A DNA stretch of 22,090 nucleotides from a virus. Where the stretch lies: positions 1-22,090 of the IMG/VR virus record IMGVR_UViG_3300049595_000581. One strand, given 5' to 3'. The notes beneath the pieces are model-generated. The model searched no databases, had not been told where the DNA came from, and saw nothing but the letters and a program-made list of their open reading frames with translations. The translations under genes and the position numbers were made by a program. This document shows, piece by piece, positions 119 through 22,086 of the stretch; position 1 is the stretch's first letter; the number at the start of each line of letters is the position of its first letter.

Positions 119-211
119 ATGCCAGCAAACAAAAAAGTAGCTAAGAAAGCAGTAACCAAAACCATCAAAACCAAGAAGGCCAAGAAGACAGTAAGCAAAA
201 AGAAGAAATAA
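119..211 (+). CDS. lysine-rich basic mini-protein (30 aa)
   Basis: A 30-residue ORF with 14 lysines and no acidic residue; the rest is mainly Ala, Val and Thr, with KKA and TKK patterns like the tails of histone-H1-like or AlgP-like nucleic-acid-binding proteins. The start ATG has a purine-rich AAAGG about 8 nt upstream. The stop lies 28 nt before a terminator-like hairpin, which fits a short independent transcript. Caution: the same frame stays open to the left window edge, so this could be the basic C-terminal tail of a longer protein whose start is outside the window. Non-specific DNA or RNA binding is inferred from charge only; no domain is recognisable. Confidence 0.5.
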   Translation: MPANKKVAKKAVTKTIKTKKAKKTVSKKKK

Positions 212-292: not shown

Positions 293-331
293 CTTCGGGC
301 TATGCTGTCAGAAGGATGGGAGGGACGCGCC

Positions 332-469
332 GTGGTGTTTTTTTGCGAAACGTGCGAGATGACGAAGACACGCGACCAGGTGATTCGGAAGATTTACACT
401 TGGGTCTGCGCCGATTGCCGATCGATCCTCATGGTGGTGTCCAGTGAGCCAGACAGAAATCTCAACTAG
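332..469 (+). CDS. small four-cysteine zinc-ribbon protein
   Basis: A 45-residue protein with two CxxC pairs (C5/C8 and C26/C29, counting from GTG 332) separated by 17 residues, the spacing of a small zinc ribbon. Such phage mini-proteins often bind nucleic acid or a host protein, but nothing here identifies a partner. The GTG at 332 is preferred because a strong SD (GGGAGGG, 318-324) lies 7 nt upstream. In-frame ATGs at 302 and 260 would add 10 or 24 residues but have no SD, and the 260 start falls inside the terminator hairpin. The stop abuts the end of the convergent - strand operon at 470. Confidence 0.55.
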   Translation: MVFFCETCEMTKTRDQVIRKIYTWVCADCRSILMVVSSEPDRNLN

Positions 470-745
470 TCATTCCCACGGGAGCTTGAAGTCTTCGCTC
501 GGGAAGCTCATCGGCACGTTGAAGACGCTTTTCCTAACCTTGGTGATCTTCTTCGGAGCCATGATCTTTTTCTCCGATAATCTCTCTTGATCCATGAGAT
601 CGCCACACCAGCATCGCTTTTGCTTCACGACCCACATCCCAGAATCGTAGCCAGCCGACGTCCTACAGTATATCTTGCACTCAGCGTCCCGGAGCTGGTC
701 GAGACTGAAGCAGAGCGCGATCAGTGCCAGGATCCCAGCTCTCAC
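470..745 (-). CDS. small cysteine-rich exported protein, unknown function
   Basis: A 91-residue protein, third gene of the - strand operon. It starts with GTG, overlapping the stop of the HELIH gene by 4 nt (GTGA), which suggests coupled translation. The N-terminus has a basic residue and a short hydrophobic stretch (about residues 4-15) like a signal peptide. There is a Cys at position 12, but no proper lipobox, since Leu is at -1. Cysteines at 23, 27, 45 and 47 (CxxxC and CWC) flank a GYDSG segment and could form disulfides after export. The C-terminal half is Lys/Pro-rich with no recognised fold. A role at the cell envelope (lysis, exclusion) is only inference. Confidence 0.65.
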   Translation of the reverse strand: MRAGILALIALCFSLDQLRDAECKIYCRTSAGYDSGMWVVKQKRCWCGDLMDQERLSEKKIMAPKKITKVRKSVFNVPMSFPSEDFKLPWE

Positions 746-1065
746 TTCTTCGCGCCTCGGTCGCGATAGTAGGCTAGAAGCCGATCGGCGTCTTTAATCA
801 TGGTGCGACCGTACTTACCGAACAGCTCGGCGAACCACTCCTCGACCTGGTCATCGTCCAACTGAAGCTCATGAAACGAAAGCTCGTGCTGATAGGCGTG
901 AATCAGCTCGTGGAGGATCGTTTCCGAGTTCATGCTAGAGCGCCGAATGTGGATCTTCCGATCCTCGAGCATGGCGATCCCGTGAGTCTCTCCGAAGCGA
1001 GCGTTATGCACCTTATCGGAGCGGACGGTGATCTTCCATTTCTTATTCACTACTTTAACGATCAT
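742..1065 (-). CDS. HELIH zinc-metallopeptidase-like protein
   Basis: A 107-residue single-domain protein with the zincin signature HELIHAYQHE at residues 52-61. His52, His56 and Glu53 are the expected zinc ligands and catalytic base, and Glu76 or Glu80 in the following EEWFAELFG helix could be the third ligand. It looks like the minimal SprT/ImmA-type core rather than a complete known protease. The frame stays open upstream to 1344, but that part is antisense to the phosphoesterase. ATG 1065 is chosen because a GAGGAG SD stands 6 nt before it. It lies 16 nt after the phosphoesterase stop, in the same operon. The substrate is unknown; a repressor, a host protein and a virion maturation target are all possible. 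Confidence 0.75.
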   Translation of the reverse strand: MIVKVVNKKWKITVRSDKVHNARFGETHGIAMLEDRKIHIRRSSMNSETILHELIHAYQHELSFHELQLDDDQVEEWFAELFGKYGRTMIKDADRLLAYYRDRGAKK

Positions 1066-1081
1066 CTCAGTCTCCTCGGTG

Positions 1082-2032
1082 TTAGAAGCTAATGAAGCGT
1101 GGGCCGTATTCGTCGATGAGCCCGATCCCGGTCGTCCAGTTATGGATCCGCTGGGGCCTGTACGATAGGGCTTTGGAGTAGGGGTCGCCGATGAATCCTG
1201 CGTTAAGCTCCCAGAAGGTCTCTCCGTTATACGAGCGATAGTTAACGCCGCCCCTGTGAGAGTGACCGCAAACGACGTTACATTGGTTATAATCACGATG
1301 AGCGCCCAGTTTTGAATAGTGGCCGTGAGTGAACAAGATCCCATTTATGAATAGCTCCTCAGTCGGGTCGTGGATAGTGTGGACGGCGTTGAAGGTCATT
1401 CGCTGGCGCATCGCCTGCTCGATGAGATGCTCTCCCTCGGGGAACTTCTCGACGATTCGCTTTAGCACTCTGGCGTCATGGTTGCCCATAAGCTGGAAAC
1501 GCTTAGCGTTCGGAACTAGCTCGAGGAGCTTCTCCCAGAACTCGACCGCCATGCTGTGGGCCAGCTCATCCTCGGCCTTCGGCGTGTAGGTGTTCAGCGA
1601 TCGGGCGAACTTCGAGGCCGAATACTGGTCGGTCAGATCGCCGACTTGGACGATTACGTCCGGCTGTTCCTTGTAGGCGAAGGCGTACACCATCGAGAGC
1701 GCGTTCTGGTTCACGAATGGTAGGTGCATATCACCGATGACCAAGATCTTCTCGGCATGGTTCAGCCTGACCACGTTCCGCATCTCCTTCGACTGGATCA
1801 CCTCGCGGATCTTCTCGGGATCGTCGATCGGTGGGAAGGGATCCTTTTTCTTTGGCTCCTCCTTCTCCTCAGTCCATAGGCCAGCCGCTCGAAGAGCGTT
1901 GTCCCATGTCCCGAAGAGCAAGCTGACCGGGATCCGTGGAAAGATCGCTTGAAAGTCCGAGATCATCGGGACGCGATCGAGTTCGTGGGCCAGTTCCTTC
2001 AGCTTTACGACAACGTAGTGCTTCTGATCCAT
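1082..2032 (-). CDS. calcineurin-like metallophosphoesterase with N-terminal HNH-associated repeat
   Basis: A 316-residue protein and first gene of the - strand operon. Residues 10-52 resemble the short homing-endonuclease-associated repeat (Pfam HNH_repeat), with an LKELAHELDR start and a FGTWDNALRAAGL end. This suggests a DNA-binding helix pair. Residues 95-285 carry the dinuclear-metal phosphoesterase motifs in order: GDMHLP (D101, H103), GDLTDQ (D132), GNHD (N184, H185), HGH (236-238) and GHSH (256-259). It probably hydrolyses phosphodiester or phosphomonoester bonds, on DNA, RNA or nucleotides. Start at ATG 2032, with GGGGGA in front. An upstream in-frame ATG at 2062 lacks an SD. The catalytic set looks complete. 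Confidence 0.88.
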   Translation of the reverse strand: MDQKHYVVVKLKELAHELDRVPMISDFQAIFPRIPVSLLFGTWDNALRAAGLWTEEKEEPKKKDPFPPIDDPEKIREVIQSKEMRNVVRLNHAEKILVIGDMHLPFVNQNALSMVYAFAYKEQPDVIVQVGDLTDQYSASKFARSLNTYTPKAEDELAHSMAVEFWEKLLELVPNAKRFQLMGNHDARVLKRIVEKFPEGEHLIEQAMRQRMTFNAVHTIHDPTEELFINGILFTHGHYSKLGAHRDYNQCNVVCGHSHRGGVNYRSYNGETFWELNAGFIGDPYSKALSYRPQRIHNWTTGIGLIDEYGPRFISF

Positions 2033-2086
2033 GTTGTTCCCCCACCGATAGGGTGAAGGCATCAGGTAGGAAAAAAAAGCCTAGCC

Positions 2087-2170
2087 TCATGGCGCAGAGC
2101 GGTAACGGCTTCGAGTTCCATTCCCGACGCTCATGGTCTAATCATGGATTAAGGGCCTCGGTGGGGCCTC
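2087..2170. promoter_or_regulatory. phased direct repeats in the divergent intergenic region
   Basis: TCATGG occurs at 2087-2092, 2131-2136 and 2142-2147, offsets of 44 and 11 bp, i.e. whole helical turns. GGGCCTC occurs at 2153-2159 and 2164-2170, again 11 bp apart. A small inverted repeat TAATC-ATG-GATTA spans 2139-2151. These lie between the divergently read phosphoesterase (start 2032) and the ParB-methyltransferase (start 2197), where an operator would be expected. I see no convincing -35/-10 pair on either strand; TCTAAT at 2137 is only a weak -10-like match. The regulator is unknown. Confidence 0.3.
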
Positions 2171-2190
2171 CTGGACTCATCCAGTGGAGG
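2167..2190 (+). promoter_or_regulatory. hairpin sequestering the SD of the ParB-methyltransferase
   Basis: CCTCCTGGA (2167-2175) can pair with TCCA plus GGAGG (2180-2183 and 2186-2190): 9 bp with a 2-nt bulge (GT) and the loop CTCA. The GGAGG side is exactly the Shine-Dalgarno sequence for ATG 2197, so the folded form would hide the ribosome site. The pairing is directly visible; the regulatory role is inferred. Confidence 0.4.
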
Positions 2191-2196
2191 GACAGA

Positions 2197-3468
2197 ATGG
2201 AAGCAACGATTCATTGCAAGTACGACACGCTGGCCGATCCGCGCACTCTTCGCGATCACCACAAGAACCGGAACAAACACTCAGACGAGCAGATCGAGCG
2301 CCTGGCGAAGCTCTACGGCTATCACGGGGTCAGACATCCGATCATCGTCTCGAGCCTCTCTGGATGCATCGTTGCAGGCCATGGCCGGAAGCTAGCCGCC
2401 ATCAAGGCAGGGATTCCAGAGATGCCTGTCGTGTTCCAGAGCTTTGCCGATGAGCAGGCCGAATACGCTTTCATTCAAGCCGACAACGCCATAGCGCTGT
2501 GGGCTGACCTTGATCTCGCTGGGATCAATGCAGACCTTGGAGACCTCGGGCCGGACTTCGATCTCGACATGCTGGGGATCGAGGACTTCACGCTCGACAT
2601 CGCTGAGAAGCTCGAGCCAGGATGCGACGAAGACGACGTGCCAGAGGCAAGGCCAGAGCCGAAGGTGGTTCGTGGCGAGGTTTACATCCTAGGTAATCAT
2701 CGCCTGATGTGCGGAGACTCGACTGCGATCACTGATGTACAGCGGTTGATGGACGGTCGAAAAGCTGATTTTGTATTTTCAAGTCCTCCATACAACGGAA
2801 ATACCTCGATAGGTTTTGCAGGTTCTGGACTTAAGAATACGACGCTCTATAGGCAAAACGAAACAGATGCTAAAAGCAGTGAAGAATATCTTCAATTCAA
2901 TCGAGATATATTTGCTTCAATTATCGCGATTGGATCGGAAGATTTAACGGTATGCTACAACATCAACTACAACAAAAACAGTCCATCGGAGTATATTGAC
3001 ATTGTATCTGACGCAAAGAAGGTCATTCCACTTCGCGAAACTGTAGCCTGGGAAAAGGCAATGGCGATATCTTTAGCCGGACATAACTTCACTAGAATAT
3101 TTGAATTTGTGTTCATCTTTTCGGTTAATTCCATTCGCATGAATAAGAATCATAATGATTGTATTAAAAACCTCTGGAAGATTTCGAACGCAAAAGCGAA
3201 CACAGATATACATAAAGCGTGTTTTCCGGTCGAGCTTCCAGAGTATGGTATAAATCTTATGTCAAAGCCAGGATCGAACGTATTTGAGCCATTCGGTGGA
3301 TCAGGCACTACCTTGATCGCTTGCGAGAAAACCGCCAGATCCTGCTTTATGATGGAACTCGATCCGATCTACTGCGGAGTGATCCTCGACCGATGGCAGA
3401 AGTTCACGGGCAAGAAAGCGCATCGGGAAGACGGTGTCTCCTGGGATGAGATCAAGGGGGCTGAGTAA
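2197..3468 (+). CDS. ParB/sulfiredoxin-like domain fused to DNA methyltransferase (N4/N6-type)
   Basis: A 423-residue fusion. Residues 5-100 are a ParB-like nuclease/DNA-binding domain with the GHGR box at 61-64. Residues about 160-405 are an amino-methyltransferase of beta-type order: catalytic SPPY (196-199) first, AdoMet-binding PFGGSGTT (365-372) near the end, then ELDP. SPPY is commoner in N4-cytosine enzymes, so the modified base is uncertain. ATG 2197 follows a GGAGGG SD. Upstream in-frame ATGs (e.g. 2090) have no SD. The central part, about 2757-3280, is AT-rich (33% G+C in a hand count of 2881-2940, against 60% in 2521-2580), which suggests a swapped specificity region. It probably protects phage DNA from host restriction. 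The stop overlaps the next start by 1 nt (TAATG). Confidence 0.9.
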   Translation: MEATIHCKYDTLADPRTLRDHHKNRNKHSDEQIERLAKLYGYHGVRHPIIVSSLSGCIVAGHGRKLAAIKAGIPEMPVVFQSFADEQAEYAFIQADNAIALWADLDLAGINADLGDLGPDFDLDMLGIEDFTLDIAEKLEPGCDEDDVPEARPEPKVVRGEVYILGNHRLMCGDSTAITDVQRLMDGRKADFVFSSPPYNGNTSIGFAGSGLKNTTLYRQNETDAKSSEEYLQFNRDIFASIIAIGSEDLTVCYNINYNKNSPSEYIDIVSDAKKVIPLRETVAWEKAMAISLAGHNFTRIFEFVFIFSVNSIRMNKNHNDCIKNLWKISNAKANTDIHKACFPVELPEYGINLMSKPGSNVFEPFGGSGTTLIACEKTARSCFMMELDPIYCGVILDRWQKFTGKKAHREDGVSWDEIKGAE

Positions 3469-3788
3469 TGGCACGGCCTGAGATCGAGATCGACGAGAAG
3501 CTGGTGTACAAGCTGGCTAGCATCGGGTGCAAGGTGAGCGAGATCGCCGACTTCGTGGGATGCTCGACTGATACGCTCGAGCGCCGTTTTGCGGGAGAAA
3601 TTAAAAAAGGCAAGGCCGAACTGAGAATGTCGCTCAGACGCTGGCAACTCGAGGCGGCTCGGAAGGGCAACGCATCGCTATTGATCTGGCTTGGTAAGCA
3701 GATGCTAGACCAGAAGGATACGATCGAGATCGACGGCGACTCTGGGATCAAGCTGACCATGAATTACGAACGCAAGAAAAAGGCATGA
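3468..3788 (+). CDS. terS: small terminase subunit-like helix-turn-helix protein
   Basis: A 106-residue basic protein. Residues 10-50 form a helix-turn-helix (KVSEIADFVGCSTDTLERR). A helical segment with RRWQLEAARKGNASLLIWLGKQML follows in two adjoining pieces, the typical ending of a group of phage small terminases. It would bind the packaging start site on the genome and load the large subunit. It lies two genes before the large terminase, with a methyltransferase between. It starts on the stop of the ParB-methyltransferase (TAATG) and ends 1 nt before the next ATG. Some homologs are annotated only as HTH DNA-binding proteins. Confidence 0.75.
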   Translation: MARPEIEIDEKLVYKLASIGCKVSEIADFVGCSTDTLERRFAGEIKKGKAELRMSLRRWQLEAARKGNASLLIWLGKQMLDQKDTIEIDGDSGIKLTMNYERKKKA

Positions 3789-6296: not shown

Positions 6297-7802
6297 ATGC
6301 TGAACCTTTTGAACCCTAACGTCCGTAGACAGATCATCGACGAATCCAAGGCAAGCGAGAACGTCGAGCGCAAGAAGGTGAGCTTCGGACAGTTCGAGAT
6401 CTTCAAGGACCGGATCCTCCAGCAGGTGAAGGCTTACCTCGAGGGGTTCTATTCGAAAGACACCATCCAGAACACGCCGATCGTAAGCTCGGTCAACCTG
6501 GCTCGCCGGATCGTGAAGAAGGAGGCTAGCCTATACCGGAAGGCCCCTGTCCGCGAGTTCTACGGGCTCAGCGAAGAGCAGGAGATGGTCGTCCGTCAGG
6601 TGTATGCGGATCTCAAGATCGACACGGTCATGATGAAAGCCAACGAATACTTCAAGCTTCAAGACCAGACGCACCTATACCTGATCCCTCGGGCCGGCAA
6701 GCTGAAGCTCCAGGCCTTGCTCGCCCATAACATCGACGTGGTTCCATCGTCCCAGGATCAGGAGGAAGGCGAGGTTTATTGCATCAACGGATTCGACCGT
6801 AACCTGGCAAACGTCAAGGTGACCGAAGACGGCGACAGCATGAACGAGCTGATCGCTGACGAGGACGACTACCAGGCAGGGATGAAGGCGATCGCGGTCT
6901 GGTCGCCTGTGTTCAATTTCGTCATGGATGAGCAGGGTAACATCATGCCATCCGAGAGCTACGAGAACCCGATCGGTGGGGTCGTTCCGTTCGTGGACAT
7001 CAACGGTGGCAAGGACGGCGAGTACTGGGTCCGCTCTGGCGCGGCTCTGACCGACTTTACCATTCAGTTCAACGCAGGTCTGACCGACCTTGGGAACGTG
7101 GTCAGGATGCAGGGATTCGGCCAGGCATGGCTCAAGGCTCCCTCTAACCTGATCCCGAATAACATCCAGATCGGGACTAACTTCGTCCTGCGCTTGCCGA
7201 TTGATCCGAATAACCCTGTCGAGACAGATTTCGGATATGCTAACGCGAACCCTGATCTGCAAGGCTCGCTGTCCTACCTCGAGGGCCTCCTCTCTAGCTT
7301 CCTGACCAGCCGTGGCGTTGATCCGAAGGTGGTCAATGCGAAGATGGACTCGGTGAAGTATAGCTCGGGATTCGAGCGCCTCCTGGCCATGGTCGAGCAG
7401 TTCGAGGCCAGCGAGTCCGACATCGCAGCATTCAAGGACGCAGAACAAAAGCTGTTCAAGATCATCGTGGCTTATCTGAACACCTACGGAGGAACTAGCG
7501 TTCTCCCGGGCTACCGTGTCGCTCCGATCTCTGAAGACGCCTTTATGAGCATCACCTTCAAGAAGCCTTCAAGCGTGGTATCCGAAGCCGAGAAGCTCCA
7601 GAACATCCAACAGCGCAAGGAGATGGGCCTGATCACTCAGGTCGAAGCCATCGCCTTGGACCGCGAGATCGAGCTCGAAGACGCGCAGGAAGTCTATCAG
7701 CGAATCCAGGAAGAGTCTGGTCGGGAGATCGAAAGAATCATGCCAACTCAAGCCCCACCTGCGGCCGATGTTGAGGACGATAAAGAAGAAATAAATGGCT
7801 GA
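6297..7802 (+). CDS. portal protein
   Basis: A 501-residue protein directly after the large terminase, of normal portal length and position. Visible features are an N-terminal SVNLARRIVKKEASLYRK segment typical of portal wing regions, mixed alpha/beta middle parts, a long helix-rich part before the end, and an acidic C-terminal tail (EDDKEE). As a dodecamer it would form the DNA entry vertex, bind the terminase during packaging and the connector afterwards. ATG 6297 follows a GGAG SD and the terminase stop after 1 nt. The end overlaps the next gene by 8 nt. The assignment rests on position, length and general pattern. Confidence 0.88.
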   Translation: MLNLLNPNVRRQIIDESKASENVERKKVSFGQFEIFKDRILQQVKAYLEGFYSKDTIQNTPIVSSVNLARRIVKKEASLYRKAPVREFYGLSEEQEMVVRQVYADLKIDTVMMKANEYFKLQDQTHLYLIPRAGKLKLQALLAHNIDVVPSSQDQEEGEVYCINGFDRNLANVKVTEDGDSMNELIADEDDYQAGMKAIAVWSPVFNFVMDEQGNIMPSESYENPIGGVVPFVDINGGKDGEYWVRSGAALTDFTIQFNAGLTDLGNVVRMQGFGQAWLKAPSNLIPNNIQIGTNFVLRLPIDPNNPVETDFGYANANPDLQGSLSYLEGLLSSFLTSRGVDPKVVNAKMDSVKYSSGFERLLAMVEQFEASESDIAAFKDAEQKLFKIIVAYLNTYGGTSVLPGYRVAPISEDAFMSITFKKPSSVVSEAEKLQNIQQRKEMGLITQVEAIALDREIELEDAQEVYQRIQEESGREIERIMPTQAPPAADVEDDKEEING

Positions 7803-8388
7803 ACCCGGGATCAAGCTCACGAAAAGCCGAGTCTCTCAGAAGCTCGACTTAAACGAGCTCACTGGCCGGGATATCTCATCCGATCCGGTTCTGGTCCGTA
7901 AGATCGCCCAGGGCGTGATCGACTACATGGTCGACCGGGCCAAGGAGGGGCGAGGGCTTGGCCGTAAGGATCTGAAGAGCCCTTACTCCAAAGCCTACGC
8001 GAACAGCCTTTCCTTCAAGGCCGCAGGCAAGAGCCGGAACCAAGTAAACATGACGCTCACTGGGGACATGCTTCGCTCGATCGACATCCTCGAGGAGGAC
8101 GGAGCATCGGTTGTGATCGGCATCGACGACGAGACGGACGCGCCTAAAGCCTACGGCCACCAGACCGGATTTGAAGGCCATCCGACGATCCCAAACGGGA
8201 AGTATAAGCGCCCGTTCTTCGGCGTGACAAGCGACGAGGTGAAGCGCGAGGTCTTGCCAAAGTTCAAGGCCGAGATCGACGCGAGCGCAGGCGCTAGGAC
8301 GATCAGCTCGCTCGAGAGCCAGGAGACCGCGATCTCGTTCATCCAGGGTCTTCGTAGGCTGGGCCAGCTATTCGAGGTTATTGAGTGA
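7795..8388 (+). CDS. virion morphogenesis protein (Mu gpG / HK97 gp10-like), copy 1
   Basis: A 197-residue protein with the family hallmarks: MTLTGDMLRSIDI in the middle, a VVIGID strand, a YGHQTG segment and KRPFFGVT before the C-terminal helix. The position between portal and scaffold matches gpG of phage Mu, a head/tail-joining morphogenesis protein. The next gene shows the same order of motifs, so the two appear to be diverged tandem copies. It overlaps the portal gene by 8 nt, and its stop overlaps the next start (GTGA). Confidence 0.65.
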   Translation: MAEPGIKLTKSRVSQKLDLNELTGRDISSDPVLVRKIAQGVIDYMVDRAKEGRGLGRKDLKSPYSKAYANSLSFKAAGKSRNQVNMTLTGDMLRSIDILEEDGASVVIGIDDETDAPKAYGHQTGFEGHPTIPNGKYKRPFFGVTSDEVKREVLPKFKAEIDASAGARTISSLESQETAISFIQGLRRLGQLFEVIE

Positions 8389-8918
8389 AGCTAAAGGTGA
8401 ACCAGAAAAGCATCGACAGGCTGGAGCAGGAAACCAAGGATCGGCTTAATCGAGTCCTTTCGAATCGCGAGATGCTAAATGAGGTCGGGACTCTGGCAAC
8501 TGAATTGCTCAGGTTCACATCTAGGAAGGGCACATCGCCAGAGACTGGCGAGAAGTTCAAGCCATTATCGAAAGGCTGGATCAATAAGCGCGATAAGATC
8601 GCCGAGTCCACTCGGCCTCACCAGGCCTATTCGAAGCGCAGGTCGAATCTAACTTTGACCGGGCAACTGATGGACGCGATCAACCATTCCGTGATCGGTA
8701 GAACGATCAGGATCACCATCGACGGGATTCATGAGCCCTACAAGATGAAGACGCGCAACGGACTCTCAACCGTTGGAAAGCGTATAAGAAACTCGGATCT
8801 GGCGCGATATGTCGCAGAGGCCGGGCGATCGTTTTTTGGGTTCAGTAGAGCTCTCGAGGAAAAGCTCCTGACTCAGGCGAAAAAGATTGTCATTCGCTAT
8901 ATCCGTCGTAATCTCTAA
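8385..8918 (+). CDS. virion morphogenesis protein-like, copy 2
   Basis: A 177-residue protein starting with GTG, overlapping the preceding stop by 4 nt. The layout resembles the preceding gene: a helical N-terminus, LTLTGQLMDAINHSV, a short beta segment (RTIRITI), a Tyr/Lys-rich loop, then RSFFGFS and a basic C-terminal helix. It is more basic than copy 1. It could be a second head-completion or tail-completion factor, or a minor capsid protein replacing the missing Mu gpF-like gene. The family call is by motif order only. Confidence 0.55.
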   Translation: MKLKVNQKSIDRLEQETKDRLNRVLSNREMLNEVGTLATELLRFTSRKGTSPETGEKFKPLSKGWINKRDKIAESTRPHQAYSKRRSNLTLTGQLMDAINHSVIGRTIRITIDGIHEPYKMKTRNGLSTVGKRIRNSDLARYVAEAGRSFFGFSRALEEKLLTQAKKIVIRYIRRNL

Positions 8919-11587: not shown

Positions 11588-13684
11588 ATGTCATCACCTA
11601 ACCAAATAAAGCAGAAGTATATCGCGAGAATTAACTCGCAGGGATACTACGTCGAACAGAATGGGGCGATCAAAGCCGTTAAAGCTGACGGAACCGAAGC
11701 CGATCTTCTGAAGCTCGACGGATCGGATCAGCCGATCCTGATGGGCCATGAAGTAGCCAAGAAATCCGAAGTCGATGCTGTATCGTCTGGCCTTGCTCAA
11801 GAGATTCTTGACCGTGCGGCTGGAGACCTGGCGAATCTCTCTAGGATCGAAGCTCTCGAGAATCTCTCGATCGCTCAAACGATCTATGTGTCTAAGAACG
11901 GTAACGACACCACCGGAACTGGTGGCCAACACAAGCCGTTTCTGACCCTGACCAAGGCTTTCGCCATGATCACTGACGCAAGCCCGAGCAAGCGTTACGT
12001 TGTCCGCGTTGCATCTGGTGCTTACTCTGAGGCATCTGTAGCGCTTCCGGCCAACGTGTTCGTGATCGGTGAGCAAAAAGAAACGGTGCGCATTACTGGC
12101 GCTGTGTCGATGGGAGCGTGGGCGCAGGATAACTCTGGATCGGACGACCGCTCCGGGTTCTCTATGGTCACTCTTTTGAGTGCCGCTAACTTTAACTGGT
12201 CAACTGCTAAGTCTCGCGCTGGTAAACTCTACATGAACGAAGTAGTTTTCGGATCTACTTTGAACCTGTACGGCTACGACAACGCTATCGCACAAGCTCA
12301 ATTCGATTCTTGCGTGATCTTCGGGGCCGTTACGATCAGCGGGATCAACGTGGGCGTTTTCTCGAACAACGTCTGTTACGGAAACGTGACGCTGAACCAG
12401 CATCCGAACGGTGGGATGGCTACAATCCTTAGCGCTTCTGGCGGTTACTGTGGCGGGACTGTTCGCCAGACTACCACTGTGAATGACTTCGGACGTCGCT
12501 GTTCTTCGTTCCTTCGGAGCTTCTTCTCCGAGAACCTGATCGTTGATGGCCCAAGCTCTTACGCTGACTGCGATCTCGACTCTCAGGGTAAAAACAGCAC
12601 TCAAAAGCTGAACGGCGGTCAGGTCGTCGCGATGACTCCTCGGATCAATCACGACATCCAGACTCAGATGATCACCCCGTTGAATACCAACTCACACAAC
12701 CTGGGAGACTGGGGTAAACAGTGGATGTTCCATTTTGCGTATGTTCACGGATCGTCTGGAACCGACCTTTACCTCTCTTCTTTAGACAGCTCCTATGACG
12801 CCGCCGGATCTTCCGCTGGTTACGCTGTTCACATCGAAGCCGATGGTTACGGTCTGAAGCCGAACGTAAACGGTGGAGACATCAATCTCACGACTGGCGC
12901 AGTCAGTGGTACTGGTGTTCGTGGTAAAATCAAGTTCGACGCTCGCGAAATCGACGCATCGAGCAAGAAGATCACGAATCTCGCAGATGGCTCTGCTTCT
13001 GCCGACGCAGTAAACAAGGGCCAGCTCGATGCTAGTTCTGTTGCTGATAAGGCATACTCTGACGCCGCTGTTCTGGTCGAGAAGACCAGGGCCGAAGGTG
13101 TTGAAGCTGGCCTCCAGTCCCAGATCACGACCGAGAAGGGTCGGATTGACGCGATCCTTGACGCCTCTCAGGCTGACAAAGACTCGTTTGCTGAGATCGT
13201 CGCTCTCATCAACTCTGTTGATCTCGAGAATGACAACGCTCTCGCAAGCGCCCTTCTGGCCGAGCAGACTGCCCGGGAGAACGCCGACAGCGCTCTAGAT
13301 GGTCGCCTCGATACAGCGGAAGGTGAGATCGATACGCTCCAGTCTGGACTGGCTCAGGAAATCCTGGATCGCTCCTCGGCTGATAGCGCTCTCGACTCTC
13401 GCGTGACCGCTCTCGAGACCGCTCCTCCTGCGATGATCGCTCACAAGATGAGCCCGATCACTGTCAGTGCATCGGAACTCGTGTCGATCGACTGTGATCA
13501 CGAAGCCAAGGCCATGAGCCTGCACGTGTTCGTCGGTCGTCTGGCCGTTCATGAGGGCGTGGACTACAATGTGAGCGTGGTCGGTGGAAAGACTCGGATC
13601 ACCTGGGCCGGAACCCTTGTGAACCCCACCGGGGTCGAGTCGATCGAGATCGGCGACCGGGTCTATATCTCCTACATGAGATAG
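11588..13684 (+). CDS. large fiber/spike-like protein, possible head fiber
   Basis: A 698-residue protein. The N-terminal anchor (1-95) includes SGLAQEILDR. Residues about 97-350 are a probable right-handed beta-helix starting with IYVSKNGNDTTGTGG and rich in Asn/Ser/Gly turns. KKITNLADGSASADAVNKGQ follows, a stalk motif of many fibers, then a coiled coil (about 480-630) with a second SGLAQEILDR. The C-terminal domain (about 635-698) has EGVDYNVS and IEIGDRVYISY, as in the preceding gene. Arg codons in the beta-helix core are nearly all CGC/CGT, as in the major capsid gene, so abundance is likely. Position between capsid and neck genes suggests a head or neck fiber. Enzymatic activity on polysaccharide is possible but not shown. 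Confidence 0.75.
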   Translation: MSSPNQIKQKYIARINSQGYYVEQNGAIKAVKADGTEADLLKLDGSDQPILMGHEVAKKSEVDAVSSGLAQEILDRAAGDLANLSRIEALENLSIAQTIYVSKNGNDTTGTGGQHKPFLTLTKAFAMITDASPSKRYVVRVASGAYSEASVALPANVFVIGEQKETVRITGAVSMGAWAQDNSGSDDRSGFSMVTLLSAANFNWSTAKSRAGKLYMNEVVFGSTLNLYGYDNAIAQAQFDSCVIFGAVTISGINVGVFSNNVCYGNVTLNQHPNGGMATILSASGGYCGGTVRQTTTVNDFGRRCSSFLRSFFSENLIVDGPSSYADCDLDSQGKNSTQKLNGGQVVAMTPRINHDIQTQMITPLNTNSHNLGDWGKQWMFHFAYVHGSSGTDLYLSSLDSSYDAAGSSAGYAVHIEADGYGLKPNVNGGDINLTTGAVSGTGVRGKIKFDAREIDASSKKITNLADGSASADAVNKGQLDASSVADKAYSDAAVLVEKTRAEGVEAGLQSQITTEKGRIDAILDASQADKDSFAEIVALINSVDLENDNALASALLAEQTARENADSALDGRLDTAEGEIDTLQSGLAQEILDRSSADSALDSRVTALETAPPAMIAHKMSPITVSASELVSIDCDHEAKAMSLHVFVGRLAVHEGVDYNVSVVGGKTRITWAGTLVNPTGVESIEIGDRVYISYMR

Positions 13685-20148: not shown

Positions 20149-22086
20149 ATGGCACTGAATAGCAACTTCCGCACACTGACAGCCGACAACATCGAGGGGA
20201 TCGTCGAGGATAGGAACTACCTGAAGTCGAGCTTCGAGAACGGAACGATCACTGGATGGCGCGAGATGGCTGTCACTGTTGACGCAAACGGATTTCCTAA
20301 CGCGACTCCTACCATCGGGACGGATGCCTCTCCTAACGCGGCATCTTCGCTGTCTCTATCTGCCACTAGCACGACTCCGCTATCTGGAACTCGATCGCTT
20401 CTCGTTACTGTTCCGACCTCGTTAAGCCAGGGTCAAGGCTTCATCTCTGAAGAGTTCACTCTCGACCGGATGGATCTCGGAAAGGTTCTCACTGTGTCGT
20501 TCGACTACGAGCGGATTAGTGGGACTTACAACTTCTCTGGAACTCGCGGATCACAGACCTGGATGGTTTACATTTACGATGCTACGGCTGGAGGGGCGAC
20601 ATGGATTCAGCCTGCTGGCTTCCTCGGGATGAACCAAAGCTCGGGCCCTGGTCGAGTGGCCTGCACGTTCCAGACTAGCGTGACCGCTGGCCAGAAGTAT
20701 CGCGTGGCCGTGATCGCATCACAGGCTGCGGCTGGAGCTTCGTCCATCGAGTTCGATAACTTTACTTGCTCTCGTCAAACCGCTCCCATCGGGCCAGTGG
20801 TGACGGATACTTTAAATGCCGGAGCAATTACCATTGGAGCAACAGTTACAGCTCCAACAAAAGGAACAAGAACCGCCGATTCGGTGTCGTGGATGAGAAT
20901 TGGCGATAGCGCGTATTTTTCGTATCAATATAATCAAACTGGTGCGGGTGCTGCCGGATCTGGCGATTATTTGATTAGCCTTCCTTCCGGAATGTCATTT
21001 GATTCAAACAAGGTTTCATTTTATACGGGTGGATTAGTTAATTTTTCCGCACTCGTTCCTTATGGATTGCCGGATGCTTGGTTTGGATGGGGTCAGTCTC
21101 CCGGAACAAATTCGTATGGGTTAATTATTCCTTACGATTCTACAAGATTTCGCGTTGCATTTGAATACGTTTCGGCCTCTGGGCCTGTTGCAACTGGTGG
21201 GCTTTTTTGGGGATCTGGTGGAAATCAACTTTCCTATGCAACAGTTTCATTTAACGCCACCTTCCAAGTCCCCATCTCCGGTTGGTCGAGCAACGTCCAG
21301 CGTTCAAGTGACACCGACACTCGGGTGGTGTCTTTTGTTGGATCAATCAATGCTCAAGGATATACCTCGCTTACAACAAACCTTGCCATGACTGTTTCAA
21401 AAGACTCTCATGGGGCTTTTAGCTCTGGCGTTTACACAATTCCGGTATCTGGTGACTACTCTGTAAATGCTACTGTTATATCTGACCAAGCAAACTTTTT
21501 CCCTACTGTGTATCTTAACGGAGGTATTTACACCTACGGAACAAGGCAGGCATCCGCATCGCAAGCAACAACTGCGGCCATGCTTATTCCGAATCTAAAG
21601 GCTGGTGATACCATTTCTTTAAGGATTGGCAACACAAACGGAAACACAATTGCTGGTGGTTATTTCTCTATCAATCGCCTCTCCGGCCCGTCCGTGGTGG
21701 CGGCCAGTGAGACGGTTTCATTTTCGGCTAATACATCGACAACAGCGGGATCTACAACGCAATGCTTTATTTATACCGTGAAAGATCACGACACGCACAA
21801 TGCCTATTCGACCATAACTGGTAAATTCACAGTTCCGGTCTCTGGAAAATATGCTTTTGGGGGCTACGCGTATTTCAACGCCGTTGTGGGGTGTTTAGTA
21901 TTATACAAAAACGGGTCAGTTATTTCTCAAGGCATTGAATCAAAGGGGAATGCTTATCCGTCTTTTGTGTCCGCTCAATTAAATTTGGTGGCCGGTGATG
22001 TTATAGAATTAAGACCTACATCATCCGTAACTGCCGGTGGTCAATCTACTGTAAACAGTTTTTATGGGAATAGGATCGGACAATGA
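20149..22086 (+). CDS. modular receptor-binding fiber with tandem C1q/TNF-like domains
   Basis: A 645-residue protein. Residues 1-215 are a carbohydrate-binding-module-like jelly roll (SSFENGTITGWREM, VLTVSFDYERISGTYNFSG, SIEFDNFTCSRQ). Residues about 219-375 are a second beta domain (SWMRIGDSAYFSYQYNQTG, ISLPSGMSF). Residues about 390-515 and 520-645 are two C1q/TNF-type domains, each with a strand like FTVPVSGKY or YTIPVSGDY, a YKNG or YLNG turn and a LKAGDTISL/LVAGDVIEL strand. From about 20806 on the gene turns AT-rich (37% G+C at 21001-21060 against 50% at 20401-20460), with GC-rich linkers between domains. It probably binds a surface sugar or protein. Start ATG 20149, 10 nt after the previous stop. 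Confidence 0.82.
   Translation: MALNSNFRTLTADNIEGIVEDRNYLKSSFENGTITGWREMAVTVDANGFPNATPTIGTDASPNAASSLSLSATSTTPLSGTRSLLVTVPTSLSQGQGFISEEFTLDRMDLGKVLTVSFDYERISGTYNFSGTRGSQTWMVYIYDATAGGATWIQPAGFLGMNQSSGPGRVACTFQTSVTAGQKYRVAVIASQAAAGASSIEFDNFTCSRQTAPIGPVVTDTLNAGAITIGATVTAPTKGTRTADSVSWMRIGDSAYFSYQYNQTGAGAAGSGDYLISLPSGMSFDSNKVSFYTGGLVNFSALVPYGLPDAWFGWGQSPGTNSYGLIIPYDSTRFRVAFEYVSASGPVATGGLFWGSGGNQLSYATVSFNATFQVPISGWSSNVQRSSDTDTRVVSFVGSINAQGYTSLTTNLAMTVSKDSHGAFSSGVYTIPVSGDYSVNATVISDQANFFPTVYLNGGIYTYGTRQASASQATTAAMLIPNLKAGDTISLRIGNTNGNTIAGGYFSINRLSGPSVVAASETVSFSANTSTTAGSTTQCFIYTVKDHDTHNAYSTITGKFTVPVSGKYAFGGYAYFNAVVGCLVLYKNGSVISQGIESKGNAYPSFVSAQLNLVAGDVIELRPTSSVTAGGQSTVNSFYGNRIGQ

Follow-up and report, generated by a model that had tools for sequence, protein, structure and literature searches.

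A metallophosphoesterase (MPE) gene and a gene for a small, probable zinc protease form a recurrent two-gene unit in phages. The pair recurs in several quite different phages, which suggests that it is swappable between them. In the window (the whole stretch of DNA analysed, 22 kb of the genome of an uncultured tailed phage), positions 470–2032 are occupied by three minus-strand genes. The MPE gene (2032 to 1082, ATG start, 316 aa) is followed after 16 bp by the protease gene (1065 to 742, ATG start, 107 aa), which shares a 4-bp GTGA start/stop overlap (742..745, minus strand) with the gene for a small protein (745 to 470, GTG start, 91 aa). The protease genes of the related loci L007 and L009 likewise have GTGA at their end. 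A mechanically called 200-aa protease ORF starting at 1344 is too long; conservation places the start at ATG 1065, preceded by a GAGGAGA motif. All three genes are real and under strong purifying selection, as the low dN/dS values indicate (MPE 0.02–0.12, protease 0.01–0.05, small protein 0.04–0.06), and they appear in the same order in every close relative contig from IMG/VR that reaches the region. The original prediction of an inverted three-gene operon whose members overlap or nearly touch was correct, coordinates included. A sigma-70 promoter scan of positions 1–2600 found none, and searches for terminators and Rfam families found nothing; the intergenic region between the MPE start and a ParB-like/N6-N4 methyltransferase gene (2033..2196) is a presumed divergent control region.

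The near-complete relatives measure 33–34 kb and include an arm missing from the window, which encodes a DNA-cytosine methyltransferase, a PD-(D/E)XK exonuclease, an ERF annealing protein and a VRR-NUC protein. On one side the cassette meets this recombination arm tail-to-tail; on the other it stands head-to-head with an arm for DNA modification and packaging, where the plus strand encodes the ParB-like/N6-N4 methyltransferase, TerS, a second methyltransferase, TerL, portal and head genes. The genes had been described as facing away from the packaging module; more exactly, the cassette faces away from the two methyltransferase genes flanking TerS, and the packaging genes (TerS/TerL), which begin at 3468, are not its immediate neighbours. 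On the other side, a conserved 55-aa zinc-ribbon-like ORF (302–469, plus strand; 76–89% identical in relatives) ends tail-to-tail against the stop of the 91-aa gene without a spacer, and a short lysine-rich ORF (MPANKKVAKKAVTKTIKTKKAKKTVSKKKK; 120–209, plus strand) is 90% conserved in L007.

The methyltransferase beside the cassette (2197–3468; compared in L001, L003, L005–L014 and L026) is 73–99% identical in its ParB-like N-terminal part and exchanged in its C-terminal half (38–43% or no match), even between near-identical phages; what comes after it in L026 is instead a TET-associated glycosyltransferase (TAGT, 1.4e-35). These differences suggest a DNA-modification locus that changes fast. 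TerS (3468–3788, compared with L006–L014) is likewise exchanged among close relatives, with 99% identity in some and 30% in others, at 83–99% identity for TerL. The 40.3-kb contig IMGVR_UViG_3300032116_000506, the source of L007 and L010, contains the terL-to-MPE region twice, in versions spaced about 33.1 kb from each other and with differing TerS alleles (30% and 75% identical to that of the window); its assembly probably joins two strains of a single ~33-kb genome. Farther along the window, the adjacent genes at 7795–8388 and 8385–8918 share a similar core (LTLTG..M.R/D.I...) with no Pfam match, as if a head-tail connector gene had been duplicated in tandem, and a tail-end protein with a C1q-like domain (20149–22086; 1.3e-7) lies downstream of 11588–13684, where DUF1565 and a YadA-stalk segment are encoded.

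The original prediction had set co-occurrence outside this genome as its test, with independent scatter of the genes as the contrary outcome. The outcome was positive: we found the trio in L037, which has a different backbone, in the same order (MPE 40%, protease 60% and small protein 40% identical), and the MPE and protease paired again in unrelated phages. L059 carries the MPE then the protease, with no small-protein match; L027, on another backbone, carries the protease (61%) then the MPE (36%), in reversed order; and L026, with a near-identical backbone, has a 74% identical protease at which the contig ends. The search by protease returned only loci with an adjoining MPE; a scan with the A8 protease alignment found only its own four source loci and so gives no independent reverse test. 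When pairing is defined as a same-strand HExxH ORF of 60–230 aa at most 60 bp from the MPE, 10 of 36 phage MPE clusters are paired, against 2 of 313 background ORFs (Fisher test, 1.5e-6, with two neighbours per cluster as the assumed denominator and clusters that are not independent of one another). The ten comprise nine counted by script and the window clade, which the script missed through the mechanically extended protease ORF. Three of them (L081, L085 and L089) count on the motif or weak profiles only, and 7 of the 36 clusters are left if the protease needs phrog_1233 support or clear homology to that of the window. Pairing is recurrent and not obligatory, since each gene is also found without the other: a protease neighbour is missing from most MPE lineages, phrog_1233 is absent from seven sampled isolate genomes that encode MPE relatives, and none of the four phrog_1233-bearing Gram-positive phages that were checked has an annotated MPE beside it. 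The third gene was seen only in the close clade of the window and in L037; hence, of the predicted three-gene set, it is the MPE–protease pair that constitutes the recurrent unit.

The partners have also been exchanged. Well-supported branches of the MPE tree force three changes for the window-type protease and four for a second type. L037 and L059, with the window type downstream, are sisters of L060 and L061, with the second type upstream (support 100/100), and L074 and L086 form another pair of mixed protease type (support 99/98). The pair was thus kept or rebuilt as the protease switched type and side between sister MPEs, and this exchange of partners with pairing retained is the strongest sign of functional coupling. 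Domains are exchanged as well: the N-terminus of the L026 MPE is 73% identical to that of the window and its catalytic domain 22%, the catalytic domain having been replaced while the N-terminal domain and the protease gene were kept. The cassette comes after a lysis-like gene set in L037 and L059, which suggests late expression there, and an SSB-like gene precedes the pair in L060, L061 and L027, in an early-type stretch.

The MPE combines an N-terminal HNH_repeat (PF18780; residues 9–52; Pfam 3e-8, above cut-off) with a calcineurin-like domain (residues ~92–316) bearing the motifs GDMH, GDLTD, GNHD, THGH and GHSH, and all metal-ligand motifs (GDxH, GDxxD, GNH, H and GHxH) are conserved in the alignment. 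It matches Pfam Metallophos (PF00149) at 4.9e-9 (37.3 bits against a cut-off of 21.5), phrog_221 at E 6.9e-32 over residues 73–306, and a YfcE-like profile at 4.9e-6. The top structural match of the predicted model (pLDDT 71.5, best in the catalytic core) is Mre11 (Z 14.9, rmsd 3.0, 172 aligned), followed by PolD DP1 (Z 14.8), LpxH (13.9) and YfcE (13.7). The best matches of the model are DNA nucleases; because LpxH and YfcE nearly tie with them, the predicted fold, like the sequence, fails to separate a nuclease from a nucleotide or phosphate-ester phosphoesterase.

The 107-aa protein is a protease domain alone, predicted from its motifs to be probably a minimal zinc metallopeptidase of the gluzincin type. 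HELIH (residues 52–56) and EEWFA (75–79) are gluzincin-like, and HExxH and the downstream EExxA are invariant in six of six relatives, in keeping with the 'glutamate helix' that ArdC has as a gluzincin (PMC7213743). H65 and E75/E76 are both invariant, and a glutamate is the likelier third metal ligand. The protein matches phrog_1233, a family with no curated cut-off, at 1e-10 over residues 2–101; its matches to SprT-like (PF10263; 0.0031, 17.8 bits against 25.6) and M76 in Pfam fall below cut-off. For the protease (AF2 model, pLDDT 88.5), Foldseek and VIA yielded nothing beyond weak matches to IrrE, selecase and YbeY-like structures (Z 3–4), and the score against the IrrE/ImmA structures 3dti/3dte (Z 3.5) is no higher than that of unrelated entries; such matches were not used as family evidence. 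Sequence searches of the PDB with the MPE and protease profiles returned nothing significant. A profile search of genome contigs with the alignments of both proteins confirmed no relative, and therefore no host link, and none of the three proteins has a significant match among PADLOC defence profiles. Protease profiles match N4-like virion RNA polymerase weakly (E 0.008 with the L059 protease against phrog_2206; 0.04–0.06 in the PDB), a hint of a protease-like stretch in this giant polymerase that may be chance. A virion-protease reading is not favoured, as the cassette lies outside the structural block of the window and the protease homologues adjoin DNA-metabolism genes.

The small protein had been called a cysteine-rich exported protein, a description borne out in part. 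It has five invariant cysteines, an invariant LPWE tail, and a hydrophobic N-terminus (13-residue mean 2.1–2.6) followed by C-x3-C and C-x-C; it has no lipobox and no clear signal-peptidase site, and family profile databases gave no match. Export or membrane anchoring is probable, and the protein, whose 40% identical homologue occupies the same position in L037, may be an envelope or periplasmic accessory that accompanies the pair in two lineages.

We tentatively favour a DNA-directed nuclease and protease used in host takeover or counter-defence, a reading we hold to be plausible and still short of probable. The MPE would be a metal-dependent DNA phosphodiesterase or nuclease of the Mre11/YfcE type, which its N-terminal HNH_repeat domain would recruit to DNA, and the protease would cleave proteins bound to DNA. 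During host takeover the two enzymes would act jointly on host DNA and on the proteins bound to it, restriction or other defence complexes among them, with the phage's own methyltransferases presumably shielding phage DNA; that the cassette adjoins a modular DNA-modification locus supports this reading. Counting against it are the near-tied folds, the low identity between the window MPE and the cluster A MPEs (~28%), the lack of a significant match of the protease among solved structures, the occurrence of each gene without the other, and the lysis-like genes ahead of the cassette in L037 and L059, with their hint of late expression. Counter-defence, one of the roles originally proposed, has a precedent in Gp48 (PMC12287305), a phage MPE distantly related to that of the window, and a more indirect one in ArdC of plasmid R388, although the anti-restriction function of ArdC does not need its protease activity (PMC7213743). 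A more far-reaching proposal, which we regard as rather doubtful, is a modular two-enzyme system, not described in the papers searched, in which a DNA-targeted Mre11-type nuclease and a minimal gluzincin protease would work as a single unit directed at host DNA and DNA-bound defence complexes. Catalytic domains and types of protease would be swapped between phages, and some lineages would add an exported third component.

The close rival, possible and ranked just behind host takeover, is phage recombination and repair: an Mre11/SbcD-like MPE would act on blocked or branched phage DNA ends and a Spartan/SprT-like protease on stuck proteins, aiding the exonuclease/ERF pathway and the processing of concatemers before packaging. 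Gene neighbourhoods speak for it, since in the clade of the window the exonuclease/ERF/VRR-NUC arm stands tail-to-tail with the cassette, as do VRR-NUC and exonuclease-like genes in L037 and L059, and the pair in L060 and L061 is flanked by SSB-like and ERF-like genes. In Bacillus phage Novomoskovsk (L140, record 45318–46624) a phrog_1233-type metallopeptidase gene overlaps the gene for another kind of nuclease, a DEDDh exonuclease; Spartan cleaves DNA–protein crosslinks (PMC9240642), and SbcD is near-universal in jumbo phages (PMC7824862). However, cassette and recombination arm are transcribed in opposite directions in the window, and no SbcC-like ATPase, judged by size and known tail genes, was recognised among the listed ORFs of the near-complete relative G010. 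The patchy distribution, the gene swapping and the divergent site beside variable modification genes are also more like those of conflict genes.

The YfcE-like profile match and the near-tied YfcE and LpxH folds would also suit an MPE whose substrate is a cyclic or signalling nucleotide or the end of an RNA (of the anti-CBASS/CRISPR-signal or RNA-repair type), with the protease as an unrelated neighbour cleaving a host regulator, and T5 A1-like calcineurin phosphodiesterases are predicted to counter nucleotide signals (PMC7824862). We consider this unlikely: the phage homologue with a characterised activity is a DNA-degrading enzyme (PMC12287305), the HNH_repeat domain is held at 73% despite the change of catalytic domain, which points to a nucleic-acid target, and pairing with the protease is far above background. 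Equally improbable is a loose accessory ('moron') cassette of three independently useful small genes that share transcription and have no joint function. If the genes were unlinked, one would not expect the MPE to re-pair with proteases of different types, on either side, or the pair to survive the exchange of the MPE catalytic domain, even though most pairs have no third gene alongside, each core gene also exists alone elsewhere, and such sites gather phage accessory genes. The interpretation first given is thus supported in part, and its remaining suggested roles find no footing: nothing links the MPE or the protease to superinfection exclusion or to lysis timing, neither has a lysis-type fold, and the pair also stands in SSB/ERF stretches, following an SSB-like gene in L060, L061 and L027.

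Phage MPEs and phage SprT-like proteases are each already known singly, and we found no description of the MPE–protease pairing in the literature searched. The phrog_221 MPEs of SP6-like and K1-like phages and mycobacteriophages belong to the same sequence family as the window MPE and differ in their setting, the seven sampled isolate genomes being those without a phrog_1233 protease. Gp48 of mycobacteriophage A10ZJ24, an early, toxic phosphodiesterase and DNase, degrades host genomic DNA and overcomes host defence, and gp53 of A9GX2 was unable to replace it in the test of that study (PMC12287305). It is a distant homologue of the window MPE, compared here through the sequences of its cluster A relatives (27.5% identity over 72%, E 4e-10). 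The window MPE, also calcineurin-like, aligns motif by motif with A9GX2 gp53 and Fameo gp56, but has about 90 extra N-terminal residues with the HNH_repeat, which these two proteins lack, and adjoins a small zinc protease, whereas the neighbours of the cluster A MPEs are a primase and a glutaredoxin. The closest predicted fold, the Mre11 nuclease core (Z 14.9), recalls SbcCD/Mre11–Rad50; here no SbcC/Rad50-like ATPase was recognised nearby, and the extra N-terminal HNH_repeat is present instead.

On the protease side, the phrog_1233 metallopeptidases of Staphylococcus phage phi575 (gp9) and of Streptococcus and Listeria phages belong to the same family as the 107-aa protease, but lack an annotated MPE alongside in the four Gram-positive phages checked. 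Were the proposed role of the pair true, phrog_1233, listed as of unknown function, would gain a testable one. ArdC likewise has an HExxH plus EExx gluzincin centre, is encoded by a mobile-element gene and has a DNA-linked role; it carries its own N-terminal ssDNA-binding domain, whereas in the window the only recognised domain of DNA-binding type sits on the partner MPE. Spartan/SprT and Wss1 (WLM) are approached through weak profile matches, SprT-like for the window protease and WLM for the L081 protease, both below curated cut-offs, and the third metal ligand of Spartan is a histidine, whereas that of the window protease is likelier a glutamate, though H65 is invariant too. SprT-like and ArdC-like enzymes of jumbo phages have been proposed to cleave host proteins (PMC7824862). 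If the MPE and the protease act together, a protease clearing or attacking DNA-bound proteins would complement a nuclease, a logic akin to cellular crosslink repair and possibly aimed at host chromosomes or defence complexes.
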